A DNA stretch of 64,000 nucleotides from positions 1 through 64,000 of the forward strand of contig NZ_SMLC01000012.1 of NCBI RefSeq assembly GCF_004349245.1, read 5' to 3'. This document shows positions 1,678 to 46,135 of the stretch, piece after piece. Origin of the DNA: Actinomadura sp. 6K520. GTDB taxonomy: Bacteria; Actinomycetota; Actinomycetes; Streptosporangiales; Streptosporangiaceae. A program made the translations under genes and the position numbers. The notes beneath the pieces are model-generated. The model saw nothing but the letters and a program-made list of their open reading frames with translations. It was not told the DNA's origin and ran no database searches. How positions within the stretch are numbered: the first letter of the stretch is position 1; each line of letters starts with the position of its first letter.

Positions 1678-1691
1678 TCCCGCGCTCCCCG

Positions 1692-5196: not shown

Positions 5197-5514
5197 ATGA
5201 ACCACAAGATGAGAGTCCAAGCCATGACCCTGAGCATGCCCACCAGCCCGAACGGATCGGCACCACGTTGCGAACATGGGGACGGGCTGATTCCCGTCAC
5301 TCCACGATCGCGCGGCTGCACGGTGTGCGAGGCGCGAGGAACCACGTGGACGGCCCTCCGGATCTGCCTGACCTGCGGTTGGGTAGCGTGCTCCGACGAC
5401 TCGCCGCACCGGCACGCCCAGGCGCATTACCAGGAGACCGACCATCCGCTCGCCGCCAAGATGGACCCGGGATCCACCTGGAGATGGTGCTACGTCCACG
5501 AACGCCTGGTCTGA
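5197..5514 (+). CDS. UBP-type zinc-finger protein
   Basis: This 105-residue protein carries a zf-UBP (PF02148) signature: C..H pair near residue 25, CTVCEARGTTW, LRICLTCGWVACSDDSPHRH, then H..H in AQAHYQETDHPLA. These residues bind zinc in the ubiquitin-hydrolase finger family. In bacteria the domain occurs alone as a small protein of unknown role; ubiquitin binding should not be assumed. Start ATG 5197 follows GGAAAGGGGG at a suitable distance; internal Met codons at 5209 and 5224 are alternatives. Confidence 0.82.
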   Translation: MNHKMRVQAMTLSMPTSPNGSAPRCEHGDGLIPVTPRSRGCTVCEARGTTWTALRICLTCGWVACSDDSPHRHAQAHYQETDHPLAAKMDPGSTWRWCYVHERLV

Positions 5515-5825
5515 CTCGACCCATGCCGCCCGCGTGGATATCCGGAATATTCAGAAATGATTTCTGGAGAGATGCACTGGAGCGCGAAACTGTTCCATTT
5601 TCCTGCCGGGCAAACGGCCATCAGCACAAGTGATGAAGTGTGCACGGATCGCCTGTGTCCGCAATCAGGCCGCAGGAGTCAAGCTGGAAACGGCCGGTCA
5701 CTGCAGGGGCTGCGCCGGCGTGGTCCAGGGCAGTCCGCTCCTCCCCGAGCCGGACGGCCCTGGACCAGCAGCCCACCCGTGGACGAGGACATCGCGATCG
5801 CAGATCGACGCGGGTGAAACCAGAA
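5515..5825. other. Intergenic region of 311 bp
   Basis: No convincing gene is seen. A perfect palindrome lies at 5552-5566 within an AT-richer stretch (about 5535-5600), which could be the control region of the downstream gene. The rest is GC-rich and non-descript. Confidence 0.5.
5552..5566. promoter_or_regulatory. 15-bp perfect palindrome
   Basis: CAGAAAT-G-ATTTCTG is a perfect 7-bp inverted repeat with one central base, standing out in an AT-richer patch. It has the size of a dimeric repressor site. The cognate regulator is unknown. Confidence 0.35.
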
Positions 5826-6512
5826 ATGAGCTTCATGACCACCACAAGGCACGCCTCCGCGGTCCAGGTCCCGACAAGCCGCAACGCTCCCACCACGCCG
5901 GACCGAGCCGTCCACGCCCCGCAGCACATCCCCTCGACCGCGGACGCCGTCCGCCGTTCACCGGCGGTGATGTCCGTCGGCCTGCCCGCTCCGGCACCCC
6001 AAAGCGTCCTCCAGGCGCGGGCATACCTGACTTCCCGTTACGCGACCGGCGTGGAGGAGTTCCTCTGGGAGGCCGGAGAACGGCCGATGCCCGACCGCGC
6101 CGCGATCGATGCGGTCATCACCGCAGGCGACCAAGCCCAGTACGGCACCGGCGAGAGCCTCGCGTCGGCGGAGGTCGTGGCAGCACTGGTGGTGCTGAGC
6201 GCCGCCCGCCTGAACCTGGACCAGACCGAGGTTCGCCTACTGAAGGCCGCGCAAGCCTCGGGCCTGGGCTTCGAGCAGATCGCCGCCGTCCTCGACCTCA
6301 GCGTCGAGGATGCCGAGGAACGCTACCGGCGACTCAAACCCCGCCTGGACGAACCCACCGCGAGACCGTCCCCACCGCCCCCGGCCGCACCGCCACGAGA
6401 CCCGGTCACCCGCCGGCCGCGCAGACCGGCAAGGGATCAGCCGACCTGGGACGAGTTGGACGACGAAGACGCGGAACCCTGGCCCCGTCGTGCCCACCGG
6501 AACTGGCCATGA
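5826..6512 (+). CDS. Hypothetical protein with helical HTH-like core
   Basis: About 228 residues from ATG 5826; ATG 5835 or 5970 are alternatives. The first ~50 residues are low complexity. Residues ~60-180 are helical and include LLKAAQASGLGFEQIAAVLDLSVEDAEERYRRL, which looks like a sigma-4/HTH-type helix-turn-helix (given here as one region; key turn residues are AVLDLSVEDAEE). The C-terminus is Pro/Arg-rich, then acidic (DELDDEDAEPW). I do not recognise a named family. Similar small proteins accompany PRC-barrel genes, and a PRC-barrel stump overlaps its stop codon, so the two probably formed an operon. Confidence 0.6.
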   Translation: MSFMTTTRHASAVQVPTSRNAPTTPDRAVHAPQHIPSTADAVRRSPAVMSVGLPAPAPQSVLQARAYLTSRYATGVEEFLWEAGERPMPDRAAIDAVITAGDQAQYGTGESLASAEVVAALVVLSAARLNLDQTEVRLLKAAQASGLGFEQIAAVLDLSVEDAEERYRRLKPRLDEPTARPSPPPPAAPPRDPVTRRPRRPARDQPTWDELDDEDAEPWPRRAHRNWP

Positions 6513-6617
6513 TGATCCGGCTGGCCGATATCCGGGAATGGCGTGCCCACGCCGTCCTCGACTCCGGCGGACACAAGATCGGCACACTGGAGCCGGTCTG
6601 CGTGGACGGCCGCGAGG
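6509..6617 (+). pseudogene. PRC-barrel protein, 5' stump
   Basis: ATG 6509 overlaps the upstream stop. The first ~36 codons match the start of actinomycete PRC-barrel proteins (IREWRAHAVLDSGGHKIGTL, then EPVCVDGREV). The match ends near 6617, exactly where the opposite-strand yihY gene ends, after which the frame reads as Arg-rich antisense. The barrel would be less than half complete. This looks like a deletion joint rather than a functional gene. Confidence 0.6.
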
Positions 6618-7598
6618 TCAGTCCGGGTCGGCGCGTGCGGGTGGGTCGAAGTCGACGTCGACGTTCTCGAAGCCTTTGTGGCGTTCGGTCTCGGCGTAGG
6701 AGGTGTAGGCACGGCGGTCCGCGGAGGTCAGCTCAACGTTGTCGGTGAAGGGCGTCAGCAGGCTGCGGGGCCACAGCCTCCGCTCCCGGACGACGTTGAA
6801 CTCGGCGCTCAGCACGAAGGTGAGCGCGCCCAGATAGATCCACGTCAGCAGGCCGAGCACGATGCCGAACATGCCGTAGGTGGCGCTGGCGCCCTTGAGC
6901 ATGTGGCCGAGCAGGAACGTCCCGGCCCACTGGATGACCTGCCAGACGAGCGCCGCGCCGATCGCCCCTGCCCGGACCTGCGCGATGGTGAGCCGCCGGG
7001 CGGTCAGCACCCGGAACGCCACCGTGAACAGCACGACGTTGAGGGCAACGGCCACCACGATGGCCACCGCCCGCACACCGGCGCCGAAGACACCACCGGA
7101 CGCGGTCACCGCCGACAGCAGCGTGGTCGCCAGGATCGCCGCGCCGCCGACCGCCAGCAGCACCAGGCTGCGCACCCTGGCGGCGACGGGGTTCGGCCGG
7201 GAGTTGCGCGGAACTCCCCACATTTTGTTCAGGGCGTTCTGCGCGGCCTGTACGACGCCCAGGCCGCCGTACAGACCGCTCACGACTCCCGCGGCCAGGG
7301 CCAGGTTGCTGCCGCGGAAGGATCCGATGTTCGCGCCGATCTGGTCACCGATGACCGGGAACTGCGCAAGTGCCGAATCCAGTACGCGCTGCTGCAGCCC
7401 GGGGCTGCCCTCCAACGCGAACCCCAGCCCGGTGACCAGCAACAGCAGCAGCGGAAACAGCGACAGGAACCCGTAGAAGGTGATCAACGCCGTCAGGTAC
7501 GGGCCCTGGTCGTCCGCGAACTTGTACACCACCGCCAGCGGCAGACCCGCCCAACGATGCCGCCGCTGATAGGCGTCCACGCGGCCGACCACTCCCAC
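6618..7598 (-). CDS. YihY/BrkB family inner-membrane protein
   Basis: The best start is GTG 7598, behind GGAAGGGG; this gives about 326 residues. Six hydrophobic segments are visible, beginning with ALITFYGFLSLFPLLLLLV, whose Phe-Tyr-x-x-(x)-Ser-Leu-Phe-Pro pattern typifies the family, and ending with YGMFGIVLGLLTWIYLGA. The C-terminus is cytosolic and charged. The family was once called ribonuclease BN but is now seen as a membrane protein of unclear transport role. The frame stays open upstream to 7748 through non-conserved sequence overlapping the reductase remnant. Confidence 0.85.
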   Translation of the reverse strand: MGVVGRVDAYQRRHRWAGLPLAVVYKFADDQGPYLTALITFYGFLSLFPLLLLLVTGLGFALEGSPGLQQRVLDSALAQFPVIGDQIGANIGSFRGSNLALAAGVVSGLYGGLGVVQAAQNALNKMWGVPRNSRPNPVAARVRSLVLLAVGGAAILATTLLSAVTASGGVFGAGVRAVAIVVAVALNVVLFTVAFRVLTARRLTIAQVRAGAIGAALVWQVIQWAGTFLLGHMLKGASATYGMFGIVLGLLTWIYLGALTFVLSAEFNVVRERRLWPRSLLTPFTDNVELTSADRRAYTSYAETERHKGFENVDVDFDPPARADPD

Positions 7599-7689
7599 AT
7601 GGCACCCCTTCCCCCAACAGCGCTCGCCCAGTCGCCCTCGTCCGGCTCGCATGAAGCGGCGGACGATGGCATCGGCGAGCGGCCCCCGG

Positions 7690-8000
7690 CGGTGAAAACC
7701 ACCTGCGGTACGGCATGGTGGTCGGCGGTGGCCGCATACGCGGTCCACGGCCGTGCCCGGACATCGGCGCCGGCCGCGCGGGCGGCGATCACGTCGCCGA
7801 CCACGCGGGCGGCGTACTTGCCCTGATGGGTCAGCGGTGCGCGCCCGGTGACATCGCCGGCCGCGTAGAGCCAGCCGCCGGGGACGGCGTGCACCAGCCC
7901 GGAGTCGTCCACGTCGAGCGGATCGCCGGGGAGCAGCCCGAGCGTCTCCATCCCGAGCTCGTCGGTGGCCGGCCTGCGCCCGGTGGCCACAACATCAAAT
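7690..8000 (-). pseudogene. Pyridine nucleotide-disulfide oxidoreductase, internal fragment
   Basis: About 104 codons match the end of the NAD/FAD domains of mercuric-reductase-like flavoproteins: FDVVATGRRPATDELG, then GWLYAAGDVTGRAPLTHQGKY, the second FAD-binding motif with GD. The match stops at VPQVVFT, where the dimerisation domain should follow with EVASVG. The N-terminal Rossmann fold and redox-active CxxxxC are absent. Both ends are lost, so it cannot be active. It lies downstream of the MFS gene on the same strand, where this enzyme commonly sits in related sulfur or metal operons. Confidence 0.8.
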
Positions 8001-8105
8001 GTCTCCTGTGGCACGCGTTGAGCGCACACCAAGGACCCGCATAACGCAACTCCACGCGCCCGGACGGGACCGGCTGACCTGCGCGGCGCCGGTCATCGAC
8101 GAGCG

Positions 8106-9410
8106 TCACGGGCGGTTCGCGGCCGCGTTCGAGGGTGTGCCGGCGTGGTGTTCGGTGATCCAGCGGGCGGCGAGCAGCCCGGAGCCGGCGGTGAGGACGG
8201 CGGCGGCGATGACGGTGGCGTTGAGGCCGAGGGTGTCGGCGAGGACGCCGGCGACCAGGGCGCCGGCGGCGTAGCCGATGTCGCGCCAGAACCGGTAGGC
8301 GCCGAGCGCGTTGGCGCGCCAGGTGGGGTGGGCGTGGTCGGACACCGAGGCGATGAGAGCGGGGTACACCATGGCGGTGCCGATGCCGAGCGCGACGGCC
8401 GACAGGATTCCCGCCAGCAGTGGCCGGTCCAGCAGGGCCAGGGCGAGGACGAATCCGGCGGCCTGGACGAGCATGCCGGTGACGATGAGGGGTTTGCGGC
8501 CGATGCGGTCGGCGAGGTGGCCGGTGGGGATCTGCCCGAGGCCCCACAGCAGCGGGTAGAGGCCCTTGATGAGGCCGACGGCGGCCAGGCCGAGGCCGTG
8601 GTCGGTGAACAGCAGGGGGAAGACGCCCCAGGTGAGGCCGTCGTTGAGGTTGTTGACCAGTCCGGCTTGGCTGGCGCCGCGCAGGGAGCGGTGGCGCCAG
8701 GAGGTGAGGACGAACGTGGCGGTGAGCCCGGCCGGTTTCCCGGCCGCGTCTCCGCCCAGTGCGGATTCGGGGTGCTGGGCGAGTTCGAGGGCGACGTGCG
8801 CGGCGGTGTCCCGCACGATCAGCGACAGGGCCAGGCCGGCGGCCACGAAGACGACACCGATGAGTTCGGGTGCGGGGCGCAGGCCGTAGGCGGTGGCGAG
8901 GTAGCCGGTGGCCAGGGCGGTGGCGCCGACGGCGACGTATCCGGCGGCCTCGTTCAGGCCGGTGGCCAGGCCGCGGCGGGCGGGGCCGACCAGGTCGATC
9001 TTCATGTTGACCGTCATCGACCAGGCCAGGCCCTGGTTGACGCCCAGCAGGACGTTGGCGGCCACGATCCAGCCCCAGGACGGCGCCCACGCCAGGACGA
9101 ACGGCACGGGGACGCCGATCAGCCAGCCGGCGACCAGGAGCTGCTTGCGGCGGAACCGGGCGGTCAGCGCTCCGGCGGCGAGGTTGGTCAGCGCCTTGGT
9201 GACGCCGAAGGCGATGATGAAGGAGAACACCGCCAGGTCGCTGGTGAGCCCGAAGACCTCGGTGCCGATGAGCGGGACGGTCGTGCGTTCGAGGCCGACC
9301 AGGGCGCCGACGCAGACGTTGACGATGACCAGCAGGGTGAACTGCGGCCAGTTCTCGGCCAGCCCCAGCCGGACCGGGCGGCCTGGCGGCGTCGAGCCGG
9401 GAGCGCTCAC
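8106..9410 (-). CDS. MFS transporter, 12 TM
   Basis: This 434-residue major facilitator protein starts at GTG 9410, overlapping the stop of the MBL-rhodanese gene (GTGA). Hydrophobic segments run throughout, and the loop motif HLADRIGRKPLIV in the second half is the classic MFS motif A (G/HxxxDRxGRR). The amino-terminal half has an equivalent loop ALTARFRRKQLLV. Such transporters regularly accompany MBL-rhodanese genes in actinomycetes, suggesting movement of a sulfur or toxic anion species, but the substrate is unknown. Translational coupling indicates one operon with the gene before it. Confidence 0.88.
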   Translation of the reverse strand: MSAPGSTPPGRPVRLGLAENWPQFTLLVIVNVCVGALVGLERTTVPLIGTEVFGLTSDLAVFSFIIAFGVTKALTNLAAGALTARFRRKQLLVAGWLIGVPVPFVLAWAPSWGWIVAANVLLGVNQGLAWSMTVNMKIDLVGPARRGLATGLNEAAGYVAVGATALATGYLATAYGLRPAPELIGVVFVAAGLALSLIVRDTAAHVALELAQHPESALGGDAAGKPAGLTATFVLTSWRHRSLRGASQAGLVNNLNDGLTWGVFPLLFTDHGLGLAAVGLIKGLYPLLWGLGQIPTGHLADRIGRKPLIVTGMLVQAAGFVLALALLDRPLLAGILSAVALGIGTAMVYPALIASVSDHAHPTWRANALGAYRFWRDIGYAAGALVAGVLADTLGLNATVIAAAVLTAGSGLLAARWITEHHAGTPSNAAANRP

Positions 9411-33103: not shown

Positions 33104-33777
33104 CGCCGCATCCTCGGGTCCTGGGAGGGGTCGGCGAACATGCGCGGGCAACCGCGATGGACCGCATCGGTACGCAGCTCGTAGTGCCAGGGCTCGTTCC
33201 GGTAGATCTGGCACAGCCCGTACCGGGCACCGTGCTCGGACAGCCATGCCGTGGCGTCGGAGTGCCCGATGTCGACCGCGTCTCCCGACACGTGCAGAGA
33301 GGTCGCCGGGGTGGCGACCCACCGGGCGGCGGCGGCTTCGGACCCGTACTCGGAGACCGCCCGGCGGAACAGCCGCTCCTGGTACTCCGCGGAGCGCCAG
33401 CCGCTGTTGACGTAGAACTCGACGCCGTCGCCGGCGGCCTCGGCCGCGGCCCGGCGGAGGGCCGCGAGGAGGTCTGGGTCGAGGTTGGTCACGGCCGGGA
33501 CCCCGTCGTCGAAGACCGTCACGCCGTAGGGGACGACACCGTCGGCCTCGCCCACCGCACCTCGGCGCTTGGGAGGTGGCTTCGAGGGTGGTGCGGGCGA
33601 GGACGGCAAGGGGGACGCGACCGAGGAGGACCACAGCGGTTCGGGCGAGGAAGGTGCGGCATTCCATGATCGGTGGCCGAGAGCCGCGGCGATGGCCGCT
33701 ATGCCGAGTACCAGGCCGACGGCGAGGAACCGGCGAATCCGGCGGGACCTTGGGCGCGGTGGTGGGGTTGCGGTCAT
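33100..33777 (-). CDS. D-Ala-D-Ala carboxypeptidase, VanY-like
   Basis: ATG 33777 gives 225 residues. One N-terminal membrane helix (FLAVGLVLGIAAIAAALG) and a Ser/Pro linker precede a VanY/M15B domain: VNSGWRSAEYQERLF, SLHVSGDAVDIG (His and Asp zinc ligands) and NEPWHYEL (catalytic Glu and His). The enzyme should trim the terminal D-Ala from peptidoglycan stem peptides, removing the glycopeptide target. It is divergent from the response regulator with 87 bases between and coupled to the VanJ-like gene. Confidence 0.9.
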   Translation of the reverse strand: MTATPPPRPRSRRIRRFLAVGLVLGIAAIAAALGHRSWNAAPSSPEPLWSSSVASPLPSSPAPPSKPPPKRRGAVGEADGVVPYGVTVFDDGVPAVTNLDPDLLAALRRAAAEAAGDGVEFYVNSGWRSAEYQERLFRRAVSEYGSEAAAARWVATPATSLHVSGDAVDIGHSDATAWLSEHGARYGLCQIYRNEPWHYELRTDAVHRGCPRMFADPSQDPRMRR

Positions 33778-33864
33778 ACCGCCAGTGAAGGCGGGGCGGT
33801 GTTGCCGGCACGTATGGGGATTTCGATACGCCGACGATATGCACCGGCTCTTAGCATCGAGAGC

Positions 33865-34560
33865 ATGCGCGTGCTGATCGTCGAGGACGAACCGTTTCTG
33901 GCGGAAGCCGTCCGCGACGGCCTGCGCCTGGAAGCGATCGCGGCCGACCTCGCGGGGGACGGCGACACCGCACTGGAACTGCTGAACGTCAACGCCTACG
34001 ACATCGCCGTCCTCGACCGCGACATCCCCGGACCCTCCGGAGACGAGATCGCCGAGCACATCGTCGCCACCGGCAGCGGCATGCCGATCCTGATGCTCAC
34101 CGCCGCCGACCGGATCGACGACAAGGCCACGGGGTTCCGGCTGGGGGCCGACGACTACCTCACCAAACCGTTCGAGCTGCGCGAGCTCGTCCTGCGGCTG
34201 CGGGCCCTGGCCCGCCGGCGCGCGCACGCCCGGCCCCCGGTCAGCCAGGTCGCGGGCCTGCGGCTCGACCCCTTCCGCCGGGAGGTGTTCCGCGACGGGC
34301 GCTATGTCGCGCTCACCCGCAAGCAGTTCGCCGTGCTGGAGGTCCTCGTCGCGGCCGAAGGCGGTGTCGTCAGCGCCGAGGAACTGCTGGAGCGGGCCTG
34401 GGACGCCAACGCCGACCCCTTCACCAACGCCGTCCGCATCACCGTCTCCGCGTTGCGCAAACGACTGGGCGAACCCTGGCTGATCGCCACGGTGCCCGGC
34501 GTCGGCTACCGGATCGACACCGGCACGGACCCCGGCCATCCCGGCGGCACCGGTGAATAG
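33865..34560 (+). CDS. OmpR-type response regulator, VanR-like
   Basis: ATG 33865 gives 231 residues. The receiver has acidic EDEP near the start, phosphoacceptor Asp in IAVLDRDIPGPSGD, Thr in LMLTAADR and Lys in YLTKPFELREL. The C-terminal winged helix has LTRKQFAVLEVLVAAEGGVV and VRITVSALRKRLGEP with the final GVGYRID. It overlaps the kinase gene by eight bases. Divergence from the VanY/VanJ-like genes makes them the likely targets. Confidence 0.92.
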   Translation: MRVLIVEDEPFLAEAVRDGLRLEAIAADLAGDGDTALELLNVNAYDIAVLDRDIPGPSGDEIAEHIVATGSGMPILMLTAADRIDDKATGFRLGADDYLTKPFELRELVLRLRALARRRAHARPPVSQVAGLRLDPFRREVFRDGRYVALTRKQFAVLEVLVAAEGGVVSAEELLERAWDANADPFTNAVRITVSALRKRLGEPWLIATVPGVGYRIDTGTDPGHPGGTGE

Positions 34561-35722
34561 GCGCCCGGGGCTCAGCGCCCGGCTGAAACTCACCCTCAGC
34601 TACGCCGGATTCCTTTTGGTGGCCGGTGCTCTCCTGCTGGCCGTGGTGTGGGTGTTCGTGCTGCGCTGGGTCCCCGACGTGGAACTCGGACGCATTCAGC
34701 AGCGGTCCGGTGTCGTGATCATCACCGGGCCGAACCGCTCCGACCTCCTGCGCGGCTTCGCCCCCGCCGCGGCCGCGGCGCTGGCCTTCCTCCTGGTGTT
34801 CGGCCTAGTGGGCGGATGGATCCTCGCCGGCCGGATGCTCGCACCGCTCAACCGGATCGCGGAAGCCGCACGGACGGCCGCGAACGGGTCCCTGTCCCAC
34901 CGGATCAGGCTGCCGGGCCGCGGGGACGAGTTCCGCGAGCTCGCCGACGTGTTCGACGCGATGCTCGACCGGCTCGAAGCCCACGTCGCCGAACAGCAGC
35001 GGTTCGCCGCGAACGCCTCCCACGAACTGCGCACCCCGCTGGCCATCTCCAAGGCCCTCCTCGACGCCGCCCGCGACGACCCCGCGGGGGACCGGGGCGA
35101 ACTCGTCGAGCGCCTCCAGACGATCAACACGCGGGCGATCGACCTGACCGAGGCCCTCCTGCTGCTCGGCCGCGCCGACCGCAAGACCTTCACCCGCGAG
35201 GTGGTCGACCTGTCCCTCCTCGCCGAGGAGGCCGCCGAAACGCTGCTTCCCCATGCCGAGAAGCGCCGGATCACGCTCGACGTCACCGGCGGGAAGGCAC
35301 AGATCCTCGGGTCAGCGGAACTCGTCCTGCGGATGGTGAGCAATCTCGTCCAGAACGCCATCGTCCACAACCTCCCGGCTGGCGGCACCGTGACGGTCCA
35401 CACCGAGTCGCGGGACGACGAGAGCGTGCTGCGCGTCGAGAACACCGGCCGGCCGGTCCCGCCCGACCTGCTGCCGACGATCACCGAACCGTTCCAACGC
35501 GGGACGCAGCGCATCCGCACCGACGAGCACGCGGGCGTCGGCCTCGGCCTGGCAATCGTGCACAGCATCGTCCGCGCGCACGACGGCGCCCTCGACCTCA
35601 CCCCCCGCCCCGCCGGCGGCCTCCGCGCCACGATCCGGTTCCCCGGCGCCACGCGGGGAGATCTCCCGGTTACGGGGGAGATTTCGGGAGGACGTCCAGC
35701 AGGCGGGTTGCGGCTTCGGTGA
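34553..35722 (+). CDS. Sensor histidine kinase, VanS-like
   Basis: GTG 34553 gives 389 residues. Two membrane helices (LSYAGFLLVAGALLLAVVWV and AALAFLLVFGLVGGWILAG) flank a very short extracellular loop of ~40 residues, as in VanS-type sensors. HAMP, then H box FAANASHELRTPLAISKALL, N box LVQNAIVHN and G box VGLGLAIVHSIV follow. The last ~20 residues (after ATIRFPG) look unrelated to the family and run into the jetD stump region on the other strand, so its natural 3' end may have been replaced by the deletion there. Confidence 0.9.
   Translation: MNRRPGLSARLKLTLSYAGFLLVAGALLLAVVWVFVLRWVPDVELGRIQQRSGVVIITGPNRSDLLRGFAPAAAAALAFLLVFGLVGGWILAGRMLAPLNRIAEAARTAANGSLSHRIRLPGRGDEFRELADVFDAMLDRLEAHVAEQQRFAANASHELRTPLAISKALLDAARDDPAGDRGELVERLQTINTRAIDLTEALLLLGRADRKTFTREVVDLSLLAEEAAETLLPHAEKRRITLDVTGGKAQILGSAELVLRMVSNLVQNAIVHNLPAGGTVTVHTESRDDESVLRVENTGRPVPPDLLPTITEPFQRGTQRIRTDEHAGVGLGLAIVHSIVRAHDGALDLTPRPAGGLRATIRFPGATRGDLPVTGEISGGRPAGGLRLR
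35661..35682. terminator. Small dyad between convergent 3' ends
   Basis: ATCTCCC at 35661-35667 pairs with GGGAGAT at 35676-35682. It lies inside the last codons of the kinase gene and covers the TAA of the jetD stump. It may be a weak bidirectional terminator. Confidence 0.35.
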
Positions 35723-35819
35723 GGGGGATCGCTTCCTGCTCGATCCGGCGGAACGGGGTCGGGCCCGCGGTCGCGATGGCGTCGTAGGCGGCCGGCCGCG
35801 TCGTGCCAGCCGGGGTCAT
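35670..35819 (-). pseudogene. jetD: jetD stump (DUF3322/DUF2220 Wadjet nuclease, internally deleted)
   Basis: ATG 35819 overlaps the jetC stop (ATGA), exactly where jetD should begin, but the frame holds only 49 codons. After MTPAGTTRP it reads AAYDAIATAGPTPFRRIEQE followed by AIPLTEAATRLL. This agrees with the C-terminus of JetD/DUF2220 proteins, where a conserved (R)xEQExI/V segment is followed by a last helix. A normal JetD has roughly 380-420 residues, so the arm domains, CAP and Toprim nuclease core are gone. An in-frame internal deletion explains both the kept start and the kept tail. The tail match is from memory of the family and needs an alignment. Confidence 0.65.
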
Positions 35820-38800
35820 GGGTCGGGGACGGCCACGATGGGTTTCGCCCAGGAGCGGCCCTCGGGGTTCTTGACGATCAGGTATTCGGCGTCCACGTGC
35901 GGTTCGATCGCGCTGTGCTTGTCGTTGGGGGCGCCGATGATCAGCTGGAAGCCCAGGCCCCGCCAGGCGCCGATGGCCCGGCCGGTGAAGTGCGCGTCCG
36001 CCTTGATCAGCGCCTCGTCGAGGAAGACGGGGGCGTAGCGCGGCCGTTCGGCGCCCGCGTCGCCGAGCTGGTAGCGGAGCGCGGCGCCCACGATGAACGC
36101 GACGAGTTCCTGGGACTCGCCGCCCGACTTCTCCCCGATGTGGTCGTAGACCGCGACGTGCTCGCCCGCGAGGTCGCACTTCTCCGCGCTGATCCGGACG
36201 TGGTTGCGCACGTCGATCAGGTCGGCGAAGTCGGGCGCGCCGCGGCGGATGTGGTCGATGACCTTGGCCATCCGGTGGTAGGCGCGCTCCCGGTCGGCGT
36301 CCGTGGCCGCCTTGTCGATGAGGGCGCGGACGTCGCGCAGCTCCTTGCGGAAGCGGGCTCGCACCGCGGAGTGGCTTTCCTGCGGGTCGATGCGCAGCCG
36401 GTGGTGGTCGTCCGCGAACGGCAGTTCCGCGAGGATGCGGTTGACCGGGTCGATCCGGTCGCGGATCTCCCGGACCGCGGCCGCGAGCTCGCTGTCCAGG
36501 CTGGTCAGGTCGTTGCCGGAGAGCTTGAGCAGGCTGTCGCGCCACTCGGACTCCAGCTCGTGCAGGCCGCTGGTCTCCAGGTCGGTGAGCAGGCGGTCGA
36601 AGTCGCGGTAGGAGGCGTCCGGGTCGGTGCCGAGGTTCGGGTTCGGCCAGCGCTCCACGAACGTCGAGAACGTGGCCTGCAGCGCATTCCGGGACCGGCC
36701 GATCTCCTCCTCCGCCGACTTGCGGTCGTCGTTCATCCGTTCGACGCCGCGCCGGTGCGCGGCGTCGAAGTCCGCCAGCGCCGTCGCGGGGTCGGTGCCG
36801 TCCGGGGCGGCGCCGAACAGCCCGGCGAGGTAGTCGCGATGTTCCGGGCTCACCTCGGTGCCGGTCGCCGCGGCGGTGTCCAGTGCCCGCTGGGCGCCGT
36901 CCACCTCGTCGACGATCGACTCCCAATCCTGGGCGAGGCGCTCCACCTGCTGCTTCTGTCCGCCCACGCGCTCGGTGAGCTTCCTGATCTCCTCCTTGAG
37001 CTCGTCCGACTCCACCTGCATTCGGTCGATCTCCGGGTTCCCCGCGCGGACCTCGGTGACGACCTCCTCCCAGCGTTTCCGCTCGGCGACGACCGATTCG
37101 ACGTCCACCTGGTCCCAGGACAGTTCGGTGACGGTCTGGTAGGCGGTGCGTCTCTCCTCGAACGAGTTGAGGGCCTGCTCCGCCTCCATCGCGCGGGTGA
37201 CGGCGTCGTCATGACGTTCGCGGGCGCGGCCGATCCGGTGGGCGAGGTCGGCGAGCAGCCGGGTGTTGCTGAAACCCAGCAGGTTGGCGCGGCCGTGGCC
37301 GCCGTGCGCGCCCCGGCCGCGCTGCGACGTCTGGCCGGTGATCGTGAGCGCCTTGTCGTGCTGCCCCAGCAGCCTGGGCGTCTCGACGCAGACGAAGTTG
37401 AAACCGCGGACGAGTTCGCTCTTGAGCCAGGCGGTGAACGGCGACGGCCGGTAGTCGAGCCGGCCCGGGAGCCTCTTGTCGTCCAGCCCGATCTCGTCGC
37501 GCATGCCGGTGCGGACGCCCTCGAAATGGATGCGCCGGGCGAGCGGCACCGCGTTGATCGCCTCGCGGAACGCGTTCAGCCGGCCGGCGTCGATCAGCAT
37601 CCGGGTGGCGAACCCGCCGAGCGCCAGGTTGAACGCCTCCCGCCACGTCTCGTACTCCGTGCGCACCTCGATCAGCTCACCGACGAACGGCAGGTCGTCG
37701 GGGGTGAGGCCGGCGGCGTCGGCCAGCCGGTCGCGGGCGGCGTGCAGGTCGGTGGGGATGTTGCCGCGGCGGGCCTTGACCGCCTTGTGCTCGGCGCGCA
37801 GGTCGGCCAGTTCGCGTTCGGCCGCCTTGAGCTCCGCGGTCGCCTCGGCGAACTCGTGCTGGGCGGTCCTGCGCGCCTGGGAGTCGGCCAGCGCCCGGCG
37901 CGCGGTGTCGACCAGTGCGGCGAAGTCCTCGCCGGTCGACACGGAGGCGCCGATGGTGCCGAGGACCCGGTCCAGCCGCTCCCGTGCGCGTTCGACGTCG
38001 GCCAGCCGCCGCTCCACGTTGCGGATCTCGCGGAGCGCGGTGTCCAGCCGGTCGCCGCCGGAGGCGCGCAGGGTGTCGATGACCGCCTCCCGCCGGGACT
38101 CCGCCGCCTTGATCAGCGCGGCCGTCTCCCGGACCTCCGCCTCGGCGCGGCGGCGCCGCGCGGTCAGGTCCTCCTCGGCCGCGCGCAGCAGGTCGAGCCG
38201 GCTTTCGTGCCGCCACAGCGCCGCGGGGGACGCCGGGTCGGCGAACGATCCGACGTCCGCGATCACCCGCAGCCGGGCCGCCGCGCGGTCGGCGGCGTCC
38301 CGGTGGTCGCGGATCGGGGCCAGCGCCCGCACCTGCCGGCGGGCGGTGATCATCCGCTCCCGGGTACCGGACAGCTCGTCGAACTGCTGCACCACATCGT
38401 CCGCGGTGGCCAGGGTCGACGGCTCCTCCAGGACCATCGTCTTGTACAGCGCGTCGACCGTGGTGATCTGCTGCCCGGCCTGGATCCTGCCGAGCAGCCC
38501 GACCGCCTTGTGCCCGTCGCCGGCGGCGCCGATGCCCAGCGCGGTGTGCAGCCGGGCGGTGAAGTCCCGGTCGGTGTCGAAGCAGGTCAGGCCGGTCGCG
38601 GTCACCGCGGCACGGGACAGCCTGCCGCCCGCGGGGCCGTCCAGCTCGCGCAGGTCGTAGGCGTCGTCGCGGGTGGCGCGGACCGGGACGACGTCGTCGA
38701 GGGTGCGCGCGGACGACGGCACGTACCAGGCCCGCAGCGCGGTGAACATCGCACCGCCCTGGTCGGCCCAGGTCATCGCGATCGCCGACCAGGTGTCGCG

Positions 38801-39160
38801 GCCGTCCCCGCGCAGCACCCGCAGCCTCGTCTCGCCGTCCGCCCGCGCCTCGTCGAGCTTCCCGCGGGCGTAGGAGAGGATGTTGCGCTGGTCCTTGCCC
38901 CGGGGCCGGCCGACCACCCCGCCGTTGGACGCCCCGTTGAACGGCGTGGTGTGCGGCATCAGCAGCGCGATGTAGGAGTCCATCAGCGTCGACTTGCCCG
39001 ACCCGGAGCCGCCGCTGAACAGGGTCGCGCCGGGCGCGAACCGGATGCGGTGATATCCGTCGTAACCACCCCAGTTGACCAGCTGCAGGTCCCGCGCCAC
39101 CCACTGCTGCCCCCGCGACGCCGCCGGGATCAGCCCGAACAAGGTGTCGATCATGCTCAT
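35816..39160 (-). CDS. jetC: JetC SMC-like ATPase of a type I Wadjet system
   Basis: ATG 39160 overlaps the jetB stop (ATGA) and gives 1114 residues, the normal JetC size. Residues ~1-60 have the adenine-binding [13 protein letters not shown] and Walker [17 protein letters not shown]. Two long coiled-coil arms (~290-480 and ~640-800) flank a hinge-like globular part. The C-terminal head has signature [15 protein letters not shown], Walker [15 protein letters not shown] and a switch IIGAPND. JetC forms the MukB-like motor that extrudes DNA loops and recognises plasmids. All ATPase motifs are intact, although the nuclease partner is lost. Confidence 0.95.
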
Positions 39161-39828
39161 GGCGCGGCCCCGTTCCGCTCCCGCAGCCACCCGCTCAGCT
39201 CGGTGAGTCTCTCGATGCTCAGGACGACCTCGACCAGCGGCGTGATGCGGTACCGTCCCGCGGACTCCTCCGCGAGGAGCCCCTCGCTGACCAGCCGCTG
39301 CACGGCGTTCTGTATCTCGCGCTGGCTGCGGGCGAGGTTGTGGTCGTCCGGGTCGAAGTAGGTCAGAACGGTCTGCTCCAGCTCCTCGATGTCGACCCGC
39401 GCGGACGACTCACCGGCGCCGCGTTCCCGCTGGAACACGGTCCGCAGGTGGACCAGGACCAGGGTCTCGGCCCGGTTGTAGGGGTCGTCCCTCAGCAGGA
39501 TCGGCACCTCCAGCTCCGCCGAGCGCACCTGCTGCTTGTAGGCGATGCCCCGGTCGTGGTCGACCACGAGCCGGACGAACAGGTCGTGCAGCCGCGACTC
39601 GATGATCTGCTGGTTCTCCAGCAGGGTCCGCCACTGCGCGGGATGCTTCTCGGCCAGCAGGAACCTGCGTTGCAGGAGCCGTACCAGCACGCGCCGCACG
39701 TCGACGTCCAGCGTTCCCGTGTCCCCGGCGAACAGTTCGGCCGGGTCGTCCTCCATCGCGACCGGCTCGATGAAGCCGGCGTCCGTGCCGGCCGGCCGGT
39801 CTTCCTCCACACTCTCCGTTTCACTCAT
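39157..39828 (-). CDS. jetB: JetB (DUF4194) accessory winged-helix subunit
   Basis: This 223-residue protein has an acidic N-terminus and a double winged-helix body typical of DUF4194 (MukE-like): [34 protein letters not shown], then [20 protein letters not shown] and [20 protein letters not shown]. It bridges the kleisin-like JetA to the SMC heads. The start overlaps the end of jetA by eight bases and its stop overlaps jetC, so all three are translationally coupled. Confidence 0.93.
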
Positions 39829-41335
39829 CGTCGTTTCCCGCCGTCCCGTCCTTGGCGCGGGCCGGGGCCGGGTTCGCCGCCAGCACGCCGCCGAACGCGA
39901 GCCGCCGCCCGGTCCCGTCCGGCCGGACCGCGTCGACCACCGCGACCTCGGCCGTGTCGGTCATGCCGAGGCCATGCGCGATCTCCAGCAGGCCGAGCAG
40001 ATCCACCGGCCGCCGTATCCGCTCGGCCGCCGCGCGGAACGCGGCCGCGATGTCGACCTCGTCCTCGTCGCCCGCGAACGCCGCCAGATGCGCGTGCAGT
40101 TCGGCGTACTGGGGACCGCCCCACGCCCGGGTGTCCGCGGACGGCACGTCCGCTGCCTCGTCCCACTCCTGCAGGGGCGTGGGCGGCTGGGCCGGACGCG
40201 GATCGCTCGTGGTCTGCCGCAGATGCCCGACGTCGGCCACGGGCAGGCGGCGCAGCGGGTCCACGGGCGCGCCGCGGCGCGACCCGGGCACCCAGCTGTG
40301 GAATCCGGACATCACGTCCCGCAGCAACTCGTCCACCTGCCGGTCCCGCATCGGGTCGTGGTTGCGCACCTGGGTGGTGATGACGTGCGACGCCTGCCGC
40401 TGCGCGGCCAGCACCTCCTTGACGCCCTGCTCGATCCGGCGCGCGATCTCGGCGAGTTCCCGGCGCTGCTGCTCCGGCATCAGCTCGGTGAACCGGTGCC
40501 GCAGCACGGTGCGCAGCAGCCCCCACAGGTCGTCGATCCGCGCCGGGTCGCCGATCAGGCGCAGCGCCCCGGCGAACGCGCGGCCCTCCGGTGTCGCGTC
40601 CATGATCTGCCGGCCGCGCTCCAGGTACTCGCGCAGCACCTCCCCGGTCGGCCGCACGTCCTGCCGCAGGTCGGCGACGACGTCCCGCTGCATCGCCTTG
40701 ATCGACTCGGCGACGCGGGCGAAGTCGGCGGGCAGTTCCCGCGCCAGATGCAGCACGTTCTCCGCCGCCTCCAGGAGCTGGTCGTCGGCGACGGAGTCGA
40801 CGGTGCCGCCCCGTTCGAGCCGCTCCAGCTCCCGGCGGCGCTGGTCGATCTCCGTCTGGAGGCGCGCCATCCGGGCCATCACGTCCGGGTCGGCGTCCTG
40901 CGCGAGCCGCTCGACCGCCTCCAGCAGCGTCCGGACCCGGGACTCCGACACCCTGGTCCGCGCGCCGCCGACCCGGCCGGCCACCTCCAGCGCCCCGACA
41001 CCGTGCGCGGACAGCCGGTACACCTCGACGTCGTCGGAGACCTGCCGCACCAGCCAGCCCGCCTGCACCCACTGCCGGCACAGGTCACGGGCGTTCCCCG
41101 ACGGCAGCGGCTGGTCGCCCTCGTGGCCGTAGCCCGCGGCCCGCAGCTGGTCGAGGGCGTCGGCGAGCTCCGCGTGGGCGTCCGCCACCGCCACCGTCGG
41201 CCGCTCCGGCGTGAACATCATCGCCAGCACCGTCACCACGAACGGCGCGTAGGTCCGGTGGAGCAGATCGAGCATCGGGTTCTGGAACGCCCGAAGCGCA
41301 CCCTGATACGCGCCCTCCACGCCTCGTGTAGCCAT
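39821..41335 (-). CDS. jetA: JetA (DUF3375) kleisin-like subunit
   Basis: ATG 41335 gives 504 residues matching DUF3375/MukF-like JetA: N-terminal winged-helix part ([49 protein letters not shown]), a long helical middle ([16 protein letters not shown]) and a C-terminal helical/WHD tail. It is the first jet gene and would join the SMC heads as the kleisin. Length and motif order are normal, with no sign of decay. Confidence 0.93.
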
Positions 41336-42119: not shown

Positions 42120-42445
42120 GGCACCCGACCTCTTTCCGGCCGCAGGGGATCCGCATCGGTTCTCCTACTCGTGAGTGGTCATGCCTCATGTCCGTAGACG
42201 TGCGGGGAGCCCACGGTGTTCGCCTGCCCGTGCCGTGACTTCACGGCGCCGGAAAGCGCCGGCAGCCGAATGTCAATGACCTGCGTACCATTTGTCGTGT
42301 AGGGGCCCCATAAGCAGACGTCCCGCCGAGCATTTCGTTTTTCGATCCGCGACTCCTGAATACTCTGCCGAACCAGGCGTCGTTTTGCACCGTCCCAGTA
42401 GACGTCCACAAGTTGATCAGGAGCGGGAAGCGAACGGGGGCGGGA
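42120..42445. other. Divergent intergenic region of 326 bp
   Basis: This holds the 5' regions of the membrane protein/jet operon and the WD40 kinase. A small hairpin (CGGCGC / GCGCCG, 42244-42249 and 42256-42261) is present. AT-richer DNA at 42265-42430 probably carries the kinase promoter; no boxes are clear enough to name. Confidence 0.45.
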
Positions 42446-45400
42446 ATGCCGGATCGGCTGGAGCCGGGAGATCCTCAGCAGATCGGTGAGTTCTGGCCTG
42501 CGGGCCGGCTGGGCGCGGGCGGCCAGGGCGTGGTGTACGACGCCTACGGGCCGGACGGGAGCCGGGTGGCGGTCAAGGTGCTGCACGGGGCGCAGGAGTC
42601 GCCCCGGGAACTGGAGCGGATGGCCGCCGAGGCGCGGGCCGCCCAGCGGGTCGCCTCGTTCTGCACCGCCCGGATCCTCCAGGTGCACCTGGAACCGCCG
42701 CGGCCCTACATCGTCAGCGAGTACATCGACGGGCTGAGCCTGCAGGACACCGTCAACGGCACGGGCGACCGGCCGGGCCGCCGGTTCGCCGGGGACGACC
42801 TGCACCGGCTCGGGATCGGCATCGCCACCGCGCTGGCGGCGATCCACCAGGCCAGGGTGGTGCACCGCGACCTCAAGCCCGGCAACGTGATGCTGGGCCC
42901 CGACGGTCCCCGGCTGATCGACTTCGGGATCGCGCGGGTGCTGGACACGCATTCGGCCACCGAGGGCGGGTTCGCCGGGACGCTGCGGTACACGGCGCCG
43001 GAGGTGTACGCGGGGCAGCGCGCCGGGGCCGAGGCCGACGTGTTCGCCTGGGGGGCGATCATGGTGTTCGCGGCCACCGGCGAGCACGCCTTCAAGGGCG
43101 GCGCGCTGCCCGAGATCGCCCATGCGATCCGCACCCACGAGCCGGACCTGACGGCGCTGCCGGACGCGCTGCGCCCGCTGGTGGCGGCGGCACTGGCCAA
43201 GGACCCGCTGGCCCGCCCGTCCGCGCGGGCGGTCCTGGCCGCGCTCACCCGCGACCCGCGGGAGGGGGCCGACGACCTGGCGGACCTGGTGGCCGCCGGG
43301 GCCGCGCAGGCGGGGCTGCGGTCCCGCTGGGAACCGGGCGACCCGGCGCTGGGCAAGGTCGCCGAGGACGCCTACGGCGGCCTGCCGCCGCATGCGCAGC
43401 GCCTGGTCCCGGAGGTGTTCCTGCGCTGCGTGGTGCCCGGTGAGGACGGGAGCCTGGCCACCCGCCCGGTCCCGGCCGCGGAGCTGTCGGACCGGGACGA
43501 TCCCGCCGAGGCGCGGGCGCTGGAGCAGGTGGTGCACGCGTTCCGGCCGCTGCTCGCGGTGACCGGCGGGCCCCCGGACGAGCAGATCGTCCTGGCGCGA
43601 CCGGCGGTGCTGCGGGCCTGGCCGCGGCTGCGGCGCTGGGCCGAGGACGAGCGCGCGGGGCTGGTGGTGCACCACCGCGTCCGGCAGGCCGCCCGCACCT
43701 GGGACGACCACGGGCGGCGCCGCGGCGACGTGCTGACCGGCGCGCACCTGGACGAGGCCGTGCACTGGGCGACCCTCGCCGGCCGCCGCCCGTCCCTCAA
43801 CCGGCTGGAGCGCGGGCTGCTGGACGCCAGCACCCGCGCCCGGACCGCGCGCAGCCGGCGCGTCCGCGCCGCCGCCGCCGTGCTCGCGGTGACCACGGTG
43901 GTGTCGCTGACGGCCACCGGGTGGGCGATCCGGGCGCAGCGGACCAGCGTCGAGCAGCGCGACATCGCGGCCTCCCGCCAGCTGGCCGCGCAGAGCCGGC
44001 AGTTCGGCGGCACCGCCCCGGACAAGGCGGCCCTGCTGGCCGCCGCCGCCCACGGCGTCCGGCGGACCCCCGAGAGCCGCGCCGCGCTGCTGAACATCGC
44101 CGCCAACCCGGCCCGCGGGGTGCTGCGCGATTACCGGGGCAACCCCCTCTCGGTCACGGCCGACCGCGACGGACGGCTGCTCGCCATCCGCAACGAGGAC
44201 CACACCATCGCGTTGTGGGATGTGCGGAGGCAGCGGCAGATCGGCGGCTTCCTCCGCTTGTTCCGACCCACCACGCCCTACGTGGCCACGTCGGTGGCGC
44301 TGAGCCCGGACGGCCGGACGCTGGCCGCCGCGGGGACCGAGGTCGACCACGACGGCGAGACCGTGCTGAAGCGGGCGGTGCGGCTCTGGGACGTGCGCAC
44401 CCGCCGGCCGCTGGGCGACCTGCCCGTACCGGGCCGGCCCGGTTCGGTGGTCTTCACCGCCGATGGGAAGAGCCTGGCCGTCGACAACGGTGCGGAGGTC
44501 GCGCTGTGGGACGTACGGACCCGGCGGCGGAGCGGTCCCGCGGTGGCCCACTCGCAGAACGAGACCCCCGACGCCTACGCCGTGATCGACCCCCACGCCA
44601 CGACCGTCGCCATCGGCGCGGAGACGGGCGACGGCCCGTCCGACACGGAGTTGTGGGATCTCACGACCGGCCGGCGCACGACCTCCTTCCCCGTGAAGGG
44701 CAAGGTGGTGGCGCTCGGCCCCGGCGGGCGGACCGTCGTCACGGTGGACCACTCGCTATCGGCCGATCGCTACAACGTCCGGCTGTGGGATGCGCGGACC
44801 GGCCGGCGGCAGGGCGGAGCCGTCCCGTCCCCCTCGGGCGAAGTGGGGCCGTTCAGTCCCGACGGGCGGGTCGTCGCCATCGGCACGCAACTGTGGGAGG
44901 TGGGCGGCACCCACGTCGGTTCGATCGGCGCGGACGTCGGTGACCCGATCAGCGTAGTCGCGTTCGCCGGCGCGGACACCGTGGCCTCCCTGGGCGAGTA
45001 CGGTTCCGGAAACGCGGTGCGGCTGTGGGACGTCGGCATTCACCAGCCCGATCACCGGCCCCTCCGCGTCGGACGCGCCGAAGAGGACGTCGTCCATGGC
45101 CTCAGCGCGGACGGACGGACCCTCGTCACCGACAACACCATGTCCGACGGGCCTCTCGCCCTCCGGACGTGGGACGTCACAGCCCGGCAGGAGACAGGGC
45201 CGGCCGTCCCCCTGTCGGCGGACACAGCGCGTACACCGCTGGCCGCCCCTCCTGACGGGATCGCGGTGGCCCCGGACGGGCGGACGTTCGTCACCGGCAA
45301 CTTGTACGGCCAGCTCAGGGTCTGGGATCCGGTGGCCCGGCGCGGGTTCGGCCTGGAGGGCGGCCCGGGAGGCCGTATCAGCGCGATGGCCATCAGCCCG

Positions 45401-46135
45401 GACGGGCGCCTCCTGGCCACCGGCGGAGGCGCGCGGAGCCAGGGGACCGACACGTCCGTCGACGGCAAGGTGCAATTGTGGGATCTCCGCACGCGCACGC
45501 TGCTCACCGAGCGGCCGCTCTTCTCCTCCGGCACGGAGGTGTCGGCGCTCGCCTTCAGCCGCGACGGCAGGACCCTGGCCGCCGGGATCGGCCGGACGGT
45601 CCGGCTCTGGAACGTCTCCGACCGCAGGGAGCTCGCCCCGCCGATCGGCGGGATCAACGGCCAGGCCGGGGTGCTCGCCTTCGGCCCCGACAACCGCACT
45701 CTCGCGATGGCCACCGGCAACACGACCGTGCTCTGGGACGTCCGCGACCGGCGCCAGATCGGCGCACCGATCACCGGCCACTCCGGGCAGGTGACGGCCC
45801 TGGCCTTCAGCCGCGACGGGACGACGCTGGCCACGGGCGGTGACGACCACGCCGTCAACCTCTGGAACCTCACGGACCAGAGCCGGATCGGCGCGCCCCT
45901 GGTGGGCCACACCGGGTCGGTGCGTTCGCTGGTCTTCAACGCGGACATGACGACCCTGACCACCAGCGACGACGAGGCGACCGTGCGGCGGTGGAACGTC
46001 GCCAGGCCCGCCGACCCCGTGGCGATCGCCTGCGCCATCGCCGGACGCACGCTCACCCGCGCCGAATGGGCCCAGTACGTCCCGCCCGGCATCGGCTACC
46101 GCGACGTATGCCCGTCCCTGGGCGAAGGCCGCTGA
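42446..46135 (+). CDS. Ser/Thr kinase fused to STAND-type winged helix and WD40 propellers
   Basis: ATG 42446 gives 1229 residues. Residues ~10-270 are a Hanks kinase (GRLGAGGQGVVYDAY, VAVKVLHG, HRDLKPGNVML, DFGIARVL, YTAPEVY). Residues ~300-460 resemble the helical/winged part that follows the NTPase of nSTAND1 proteins (RPAVLRAWPRLRRWAEDER, VVHHRVRQAARTW), but the NTPase itself is absent. A membrane helix follows at ~473-495 (AAAVLAVTTVVSLTATGWAI). The remaining ~700 residues hold about 14 WD motifs (IALWDVR, VRLWDVR, VQLWDLR, VNLWNL), enough for two seven-bladed propellers outside the membrane or on its far side. It would sense ligands or partners with the propellers and signal by phosphorylation. 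Confidence 0.9.
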   Translation: MPDRLEPGDPQQIGEFWPAGRLGAGGQGVVYDAYGPDGSRVAVKVLHGAQESPRELERMAAEARAAQRVASFCTARILQVHLEPPRPYIVSEYIDGLSLQDTVNGTGDRPGRRFAGDDLHRLGIGIATALAAIHQARVVHRDLKPGNVMLGPDGPRLIDFGIARVLDTHSATEGGFAGTLRYTAPEVYAGQRAGAEADVFAWGAIMVFAATGEHAFKGGALPEIAHAIRTHEPDLTALPDALRPLVAAALAKDPLARPSARAVLAALTRDPREGADDLADLVAAGAAQAGLRSRWEPGDPALGKVAEDAYGGLPPHAQRLVPEVFLRCVVPGEDGSLATRPVPAAELSDRDDPAEARALEQVVHAFRPLLAVTGGPPDEQIVLARPAVLRAWPRLRRWAEDERAGLVVHHRVRQAARTWDDHGRRRGDVLTGAHLDEAVHWATLAGRRPSLNRLERGLLDASTRARTARSRRVRAAAAVLAVTTVVSLTATGWAIRAQRTSVEQRDIAASRQLAAQSRQFGGTAPDKAALLAAAAHGVRRTPESRAALLNIAANPARGVLRDYRGNPLSVTADRDGRLLAIRNEDHTIALWDVRRQRQIGGFLRLFRPTTPYVATSVALSPDGRTLAAAGTEVDHDGETVLKRAVRLWDVRTRRPLGDLPVPGRPGSVVFTADGKSLAVDNGAEVALWDVRTRRRSGPAVAHSQNETPDAYAVIDPHATTVAIGAETGDGPSDTELWDLTTGRRTTSFPVKGKVVALGPGGRTVVTVDHSLSADRYNVRLWDARTGRRQGGAVPSPSGEVGPFSPDGRVVAIGTQLWEVGGTHVGSIGADVGDPISVVAFAGADTVASLGEYGSGNAVRLWDVGIHQPDHRPLRVGRAEEDVVHGLSADGRTLVTDNTMSDGPLALRTWDVTARQETGPAVPLSADTARTPLAAPPDGIAVAPDGRTFVTGNLYGQLRVWDPVARRGFGLEGGPGGRISAMAISPDGRLLATGGGARSQGTDTSVDGKVQLWDLRTRTLLTERPLFSSGTEVSALAFSRDGRTLAAGIGRTVRLWNVSDRRELAPPIGGINGQAGVLAFGPDNRTLAMATGNTTVLWDVRDRRQIGAPITGHSGQVTALAFSRDGTTLATGGDDHAVNLWNLTDQSRIGAPLVGHTGSVRSLVFNADMTTLTTSDDEATVRRWNVARPADPVAIACAIAGRTLTRAEWAQYVPPGIGYRDVCPSLGEGR

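Follow-up and report, generated by a model that had tools for sequence, protein, structure and literature searches.

The stretch analyzed here, 64,000 nucleotides of the soil actinobacterium Actinomadura sp. 6K520 (contig NZ_SMLC01000012.1, positions 1 to 64,000; hereafter the window), carries a type I Wadjet operon (jetABCD, corresponding to mksFEBG) that has lost its nuclease gene jetD and kept an intact structural maintenance of chromosomes (SMC) motor. The remnant behind jetC is JetD, relatives carry an intact jetD at the same place, and jetA, jetB and jetC are intact and constrained. The loss of JetD next to an intact motor, which was the central claim of the initial annotation of this DNA, is thus supported by the jetD genes of relatives, by the remnant and by purifying selection on jetABC. 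We consider it probable that JetD is a weapon that can be dispensed with and that JetABC functions independently of it; by analogy with known complexes, this function is most likely the extrusion of loops on cellular DNA in the manner of MksBEF.

The three motor genes are complete, co-directional and coupled. jetA (39821..41335, minus strand) encodes a kleisin of the DUF3375 family with 504 amino acids (Pfam PF11855, E = 8e-115; PADLOC JetA1 model PDLC00464, E = 2.3e-213), and jetB (39157..39828, minus strand), which overlaps the jetA stop, encodes a KITE protein of the DUF4194 family with 223 amino acids (PF13835, E = 9e-43; JetB1 model PDLC00473, E = 6.1e-111). The SMC ATPase gene jetC (35816..39190, minus strand) is a GTG-initiated open reading frame (ORF) of 1124 codons, residues 11–1123 of which match the JetC1 model PDLC00517 with E = 0; the true start is probably the ATG at 39160 (MSMIDTLFG), and the MSMIDTLFG block at the start of jetC is conserved highly enough to serve as a search pattern. 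All three PADLOC models are matched over nearly their full length, and JetC contains the Walker A motif, the SGGES signature and the Walker B motif. PADLOC, Pfam and motif reading therefore agree with the initial annotation, which had described full-length, coupled genes with all ATPase motifs. Coupled JetA, JetB and JetC homologs transcribed in one direction are as in type I Wadjet, and the combination of SMC protein, kleisin and KITE protein with intact ATPase motifs and no MksG is as in MksBEF without MksG. The nearest named relatives of the jetC gene are in Actinomadura livida JCM 3387 (93% identity) and Actinomadura sp. GC306 (92%). The genome of the window (G000) is a draft of 8.19 Mb in 445 contigs with 97% completeness.

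An intact JetD nuclease with CAP and Toprim domains is absent from the operon. At its place stands a stump of 49 codons (35670..35819, minus strand), in which the original start, an ATG overlapping the jetC stop (ATGA), runs directly into the final ~39 codons of JetD. PADLOC recognized the stump as the end of JetD1 (positions 353–383 of 398, E = 2.5e-4), and a profile built from the JetDs of the genus (profile A2) matched it at 35682–35795 (E = 8.1e-10); a Pfam search of the stump gave no match. When aligned to intact JetDs (alignment A1), the stump corresponds to the final ~39 of ~407 codons and contains none of the conserved JetD residues upstream of them, and these C-terminal codons, the motif FRRIEQEAIPL included, align with the tails of all 14 intact JetDs of the genus. 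The stump is what a deletion left of a type I jetD. The deletion junction lies at approximately 35793..35814 (minus strand), the exact base being ambiguous, and was placed by pairwise alignment and by downstream collinearity with G048, a JetD-bearing genome of the genus (27–3885 aligns with 1107–4955 downstream of the G048 jetC, at 86–89% identity across the flank). Compared with G048, ~1.07 kb or ~360 codons of jetD are gone. The 49 codons, the overlapping ATG and the JetD-like tail had all been recognized correctly in the initial annotation, and the deletion that it proposed stands as well, with a size of ~360 instead of ~340 internal codons.

We searched 65 genomes of the genus for jetC (E ≤ 1e-20) and examined 12–18 kb around each operon. 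Twenty genomes contained jetC; 19 of the operons are orthologous, counting the window and those with 84–93% identity to it, and the remaining one is distant. A full-length JetD (392–422 amino acids, with some starts uncertain) directly follows jetC in 14 of the 19 orthologous operons. The remaining five (G000, G022, G047, G021 and G026) are JetD-less, and jetA, jetB and jetC are open in all of them. Profile A2 matched 16 of the 65 genomes, the matches being the 14 JetDs after an orthologous jetC, the JetD of the distant operon and the window stump, and it detected no complete type I JetD in a genome of the genus without jetC. The JetD breakpoints differ among the JetD-less operons. G022, which is collinear with G000 on both sides and has other breakpoints, retains, as read from the alignment, codons 1 to ~12, a fragment around codons 58–69 and the final codons of jetD, with a frameshift. 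In G021, ~150 bases stand in place of jetD when compared with G059, and the flanks are 88.5–91.5% identical downstream and 84–88% upstream. No jetD remnant was detected after jetC in G047 and G026 at E ≤ 1e-4. Trees of concatenated jetABC, based on nucleotides and on proteins, paired JetD-less with JetD-bearing operons (G022 with G048, G021 with G059, and G047 with G060) and joined G000 to the G022–G048 pair, in each case with an ultrafast bootstrap support of 100; the position of G026 was weakly supported. Taken at face value, these trees imply five losses among 19 operons. The distances of JetD and JetC were correlated over 38 JetD-bearing taxa (r = 0.93) and less so within 15 taxa of the Actinomadura set (r = 0.49, compared with 0.80 for JetC and JetB), so that some exchange of jetD is possible. 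G028 carries an isolated JetD tail (L059, G028:C20, match 241641–241808), which is ~54 codons long and has 93% identity to that of the G012 JetD; no match to jetA, jetB or jetC occurs within 3.2 kb around it, and it is possibly a fossil of another copy.

Similar patterns were observed outside the genus. In a family sample of 298 genomes (jetC at E ≤ 1e-100), 26 genomes contained jetC, among them 12 new loci, of which seven were close (80–90%) and five distant. Two of the close loci (G190 and G095) retain only JetD heads with different ends, and all five distant loci match JetD over most of its length. Among the best 80 of 162 jetC relatives from a scan of one genome per species for 84,980 species (hereafter named loci), all actinobacterial, 36 have JetD downstream and 44 lack a complete JetD after jetC; the contigs of two of the latter (L129 and L135) end too early, and a third (L128), with 828 bases downstream, is covered by the genome-wide JetD search described below. 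Head remnants of JetD beyond the genus are found at L065 and L066. A JetC tree was calculated with 84 sequences from the named loci, the window and the family loci, leaving out L129, L135, four duplicate genomes and L102; because L065 was retained, although it is taken to be the same genome as L095, the 84 taxa with 45 JetD-less members correspond to 83 and 44 distinct ones. JetD-less sequences form 16 clades in this tree, the largest of which comprises 25 sequences from Microbacteriaceae and Tessaracoccus. Placements are weak for Paractinoplanes and a metagenome-assembled genome (MAG; own support 0.22), C. massiliensis (parent 0.27) and A. macrotermitis (parent 0.58). As Fitch parsimony yields 15 changes with a JetD-less root, parsimony alone is no proof of loss, and direct evidence, in the form of a remnant or a syntenic gap, is limited to G000, G022, G021, L065/L095, L066 and L120. 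The L120 locus belongs to Cellulomonas sp. URHE0023 (L120/L158), where a JetD tail stump of the same kind as in the window lies ~160 bases after jetC (L120 8500–8649).

As a distant control, JetC1 of L068 was used to query 394 genomes of the class. It detected 24 loci in 23 genomes, all with jetA and jetB homologs adjoining jetC; JetD was close by in five, one was the window with its stump, and 18 showed none, including one locus (L175) that ends with its contig. Three of the 17 control loci that are only 34–38% identical to the window jetC have JetD. The possibility that JetD absence is peculiar to the subfamily of the window was rejected, since distant JetC1 loci mostly lack JetD too. JetABC without type I JetD is common in the Actinobacteria sampled and is therefore not a peculiarity of one species.

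Searches of G000 with profile A2 (E ≤ 0.01) and with PDLC00520 (E ≤ 10) revealed no type I JetD besides the stump in this 97% complete draft. A match to PF09983 with 14 bits (E = 0.108) stems from JetD2, which belongs to a complete type II Wadjet operon (L197, G000:C331:64000-80000, plus strand; jetA2 879–2438, jetB2 2458–3669, jetC2 3666–7814, jetD2 7811–9040). This operon is a separate system with its own jetA2-B2-C2, and its JetD2 is the only intact JetD found in G000. JetD2 was detected in one of the five JetD1-less and seven of the 14 JetD1-bearing genomes of the genus; hence, type II Wadjet does not explain the losses, and redundancy with a second Wadjet system was rejected as their general cause.

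Outside the genus, profile A2 was applied to 38 of the 44 JetD-less genomes and two controls; four others are Actinomadura genomes contained in the 65-genome search, and L129 and L135 were outside its scope. Both controls matched, and 33 of the 38 JetD-less genomes did not. The five matches comprise the stump after jetC in Cellulomonas sp. URHE0023 and four JetDs beside a different jetC. Neither A2 nor PF09983 matched anywhere in G021, G022, G026 and G047, and PF09983 did not match G095 and G190 either. With PF09983, six of the same 38 genomes matched, namely the five matched by A2 (with the stump scoring under the curated cut-off) and G360 with a short tail fragment, and 17 of the 21 genomes searched among the 23 of the control set gave no match. 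Type II JetDs escape both PF09983 (E ≤ 0.01) and A2, and JetDs of types II and III were not searched outside the genus; as the JetD2 of G000 itself reaches just 14 bits, 'no match' means only that no type I-like JetD is present. Short PF09983 fragments resembling JetD tails occur in two Microbacterium genomes (L194, G360:C11:145492-145686; L196, G348:C33:34475-34603, below the cut-off), with no jetC match adjoining L194 and no match of L196 to any query. Clustering of the ORFs downstream of jetC at the 44 JetD-less loci, two of which have no such ORFs due to contig ends, revealed no gene common to all; the largest groups comprised 7, 6, 5, 3 and 3 loci, some of them resembling frames on the wrong strand. 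A replacement effector adjoining jetC was consequently rejected. The absence of a conserved neighbor and of a type I JetD match in 33 of 38 genomes disfavors the suggestion of the initial annotation that a nuclease is encoded elsewhere.

Selection on jetABC was assessed with a codon model of the GY94 type (own script, F3x4, 1829 codons, 19 taxa). The overall ratio of nonsynonymous to synonymous substitution rates (omega) was 0.082–0.083, and 0.086 with IQ-TREE (GY+F3X4) on 1878 codons. On the five JetD-less terminal branches omega was 0.078 vs 0.083 elsewhere (2ΔlnL = 0.93, and 0.81 after longer optimization), and forcing omega = 1 on these branches was rejected at a cost of 471 log-likelihood (lnL) units. 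With branch lengths fixed, the 95% confidence interval (CI) was 0.071–0.085 for the five branches together and 0.059–0.123 for G000 alone. In JetD-free clades, omega was 0.036 for 10 Microbacterium relatives (0.038 if L127, which has a frameshifted jetB, is included), 0.038 for five Leucobacter and 0.072 for three Nocardia, whereas JetD-bearing clades ranged from 0.077 to 0.126. Values near 0.04 are thus maintained over tree lengths of ~3–4.5 substitutions per codon. Stronger selection without JetD, as raw omega might suggest, was dropped as an interpretation, because omega of ScpA is also lower in JetD-free (0.017–0.020) than in JetD-bearing clades (0.028–0.033), and the JetABC/ScpA ratios overlap (2.1–3.6 in three JetD-free vs 2.7 and 4.5 in two JetD-bearing clades). 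We therefore claim comparable, not stronger, constraint. The purifying selection that the initial annotation had proposed to look for is present on JetD-less branches and in JetD-free clades alike, and the motor is constrained in the absence of the nuclease, as in MksBEF without MksG.

The mode of inheritance was compared with that of ScpA of the Smc-ScpAB complex, which is also encoded in G000. JetC and ScpA distances were correlated in 16 JetD-free Microbacteriaceae (r = 0.98, Mantel p = 0.001) and in the 11 closest of them (r = 0.56, p = 0.01). A correlation was also seen across seven taxa with JetD (members of Microbispora, Sphaerisporangium, Lentzea, Amycolatopsis and Nocardia; r = 0.85, p = 0.004); their JetC differs by only 5–14% where ScpA differs by up to 46%, which is suggestive of transfer between orders. 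The armed operons at L087, L088, L092, L093 and L094 closely resemble each other (JetC 9–14% different, ScpA up to 46% different), so that such transfer is likely. Four JetD-bearing Nocardia show similar divergence of JetC and ScpA (r = 0.59, p = 0.14), and in a JetD-free Nocardia carnea trio JetC differs by 6–7% and ScpA by 0.8%. These data are only suggestive of armed operons being mobile and unarmed ones resident.

With type I Wadjet (JetABCD/MksFEBG), the window operon shares the jetA-jetB-jetC order, the coupling and the sequence family, and its relatives have the full four-gene operon; it differs in that jetD, the defining effector, is reduced to 49 codons with only the C-terminal tail. 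Among solved structures, JetC, JetA and JetD/MksG from Wadjet systems score best, and the top-scoring solved relative of the JetDs of the genus is 8b7f, which we take to be MksG of the actinobacterial relative Corynebacterium glutamicum. A three-subunit complex without nuclease also resembles MukBEF, but JetC is far from MukB (Pfam MukB PF04310, 22.0 bits with a cut-off of 23). Like nuclease-free MksBEF of Pseudomonas aeruginosa, the genome of the window has SMC, kleisin and KITE proteins and ScpA, and no type I JetD was found in it; the difference lies in the repeated loss among close JetD-keeping species with visible remnants, and the chromosome role is proposed here by analogy. P. aeruginosa MksBEF is the basis of the analogy to chromosome organization and segregation (PMC7485682), whereas C. 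glutamicum MksBEFG has MksG, acts on plasmids and does not fold the chromosome (PMC7083940, PMC10123090). JetABCD orthologs have been reported in Brevibacterium (PMC6579920), and an actinobacterial genome paper lists a 'Wadjet' consisting of JetA, JetB and JetC only (PMC11719660). Nuclease-free members of the Wadjet group are in print (PMC7617805, PMC10586767), including several without MksG/JetD in a genome survey (PMC7617805), and a review proposed that chromosome organizers of the MksBEF/MukBEF type arose from Wadjet by loss of JetD (PMC10586767). JetD-less members of the group are thus already known; the unusual element is a recurrent loss series among close species. No report of repeated, recent in-place JetD loss among close species with continued constraint was found in the literature searched, which was poor in subscription journals.

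According to the Wadjet model, two JetABC motors complete loop extrusion on circular DNA and thereby activate the JetD cut, and plasmid defense depends on the full set of four subunits (PMC10586767). A JetABC complex left by in-place deletion of jetD, with only its start and last ~39 codons remaining, would by this mechanism be unable to cleave plasmids. Because jetABC is intact after the deletion and many relatives lack JetD, it is probable that the motor serves the cell in its own right, and intact ATPase motifs together with constraint argue that it is still running. Lineages in this family appear to drop JetD repeatedly, and JetABC would be kept because an SMC-kleisin-KITE complex is useful without it. 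Its most likely role would be to use ATP to extrude loops on, or to compact, the chromosome or a resident plasmid, as for P. aeruginosa MksBEF and alongside Smc-ScpAB. Among the fates offered by the initial annotation, a MukBEF-like role is the best remaining inference.

Several observations weigh against such a JetD-independent function. The JetD-bearing complex of C. glutamicum does not fold the chromosome (PMC7083940). The deletion in the window could be very recent, so that the jetABC genes of G000 may have had no time to decay, and the CI for G000 is compatible with neutral evolution over as much as ~4% of the G000 terminal branch. The two-ratio test relies on our own script, with only the one-ratio result checked by a standard program. 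Unique changes at otherwise invariant sites are slightly more common on JetD-less tips, with 55 per 0.642 branch length vs 136 per 1.96 on the others (rate ratios of 1.27 for jetA, 1.02 for jetB and 1.27 for jetC), and two of the 44 JetD-less named loci (L127 and L140) have probable jetB frameshifts. The N-terminal segment of JetB stays conserved in JetD-less operons; an N-terminal JetB motif is reported to contact JetD (PMC10586767), and the segment, if equivalent to that motif, would be expected to relax without JetD. In the window (39700–39770) and elsewhere, FIxPVxMExDPxxLFxGDxGxL is largely kept with or without JetD, with some variation, for example in Leucobacter; the segment may have a role beyond JetD contact. 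The number of independent losses is also affected by conflicting signals at the operon. The flank upstream of jetA is common to G000 and G022 and unrelated in G048 (1–3950; nothing in common with G000 within the ~3.9 kb compared), despite the homology of jetABC and the downstream flank, and among 5435 aligned downstream columns G022 and G048 agree at 323 sites, G000 and G022 at 290, and G000 and G048 at 186. Upstream flank and mixed downstream sites make recombination at the operon likely. G000 and G022 may have shared a single loss that eroded further afterwards, and we therefore count four or five losses in the genus.

The operon could alternatively be a disarmed relic, in which loss of jetD was favored because it admits plasmids or avoids self-damage, and in which jetABC is now functionless and will decay. 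Loss of only the cutting subunit with the motor spared would fit this explanation, as would the in-frame, still recognizable stump, which fits a recent event, and the common absence of the whole operon (45 of 65 genomes of the genus without jetC match at E ≤ 1e-20). However, omega is not raised on the five JetD-less branches, JetD-free clades hold their low omega over long trees, and G021 and G022 have full-length jetABC with little or no jetD left. Stops close to gene ends left aside, jetABC is not broken more often where JetD is missing (two of 44 loci vs three of 36 JetD-bearing ones, with broken jetB in L107 and L111 and broken jetC in L113). As JetD-free clades keep a constrained jetABC, the recent disarming considered in the initial annotation is unsupported as a general explanation, though it may hold for G000 alone; on the whole we regard a decaying relic as unlikely. 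The L113 locus, from Jidongwangia harbinensis, has its frameshift near the end of jetC (4971–8338) and an open jetD, and a sequencing error is possible there.

Continued defense with a nuclease acting in trans, such as the type II JetD of G000 or an unrelated nuclease, would draw on the complete type II Wadjet with intact JetD2 in this genome and on the conserved JetB segment as a possible effector contact. The low frequency of JetD2 in JetD1-less genomes of the genus argues against it, as does the lack of a conserved neighbor after JetD-less jetC (unrelated nucleases were not searched), and in the four JetD-less genomes with another A2-detected JetD this JetD lies beside its own jetC; we thus judge this explanation decidedly unlikely. 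JetABC might also protect a resident replicon, or extrude or silence incoming DNA without cleavage, which is in line with its intact motor motifs and with a published motor activity that is upstream of, and distinct from, the JetD cut (PMC10586767). Since the published system needs all four subunits against plasmids (PMC10586767), we rate this very unlikely. An assembly artifact would have a negligible chance: the draft consists of 445 contigs and JetD-bearing G048 has a different flank upstream of jetA, but the downstream flank is collinear with a coherent junction, and losses with other breakpoints occur in other assemblies, including one-contig G095 and 10-contig G026.

Downstream of the operon, a convergent sensor histidine kinase gene (34553..35722, plus strand; HAMP, HisKA and HATPase_c domains) overlaps the last 53 bases of the stump with its 3' end. 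In G048, its homolog overlaps the 3' end of the intact jetD, so that this relative has an intact jetD between jetC and the kinase gene, the arrangement for which the initial annotation had suggested examining sister strains. A response regulator gene lies beside the kinase gene (33673..34560, plus strand; Response_reg and Trans_reg_C), with the same flank in G022 and G048. Upstream of jetA, a large ORF on the opposite strand (42413–46135, plus strand), also present beside the operon in G022, reads by eye like a Ser/Thr kinase with WD repeats.

More broadly, we tentatively propose, with somewhat less than even confidence, that actinobacterial JetABC is primarily a resident SMC complex with a cellular job for which JetD is optional and repeatedly lost, armed operons moving between distant hosts in the manner of defense genes and unarmed ones being inherited with the chromosome. 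If true, these operons would form a natural series in which a defense system becomes an SMC complex for housekeeping. Pairs of close species that differ in JetD but have similar motors under constraint make the function of JetABC without its nuclease testable in soil bacteria, and matches to jetABC alone should not be annotated as plasmid defense.

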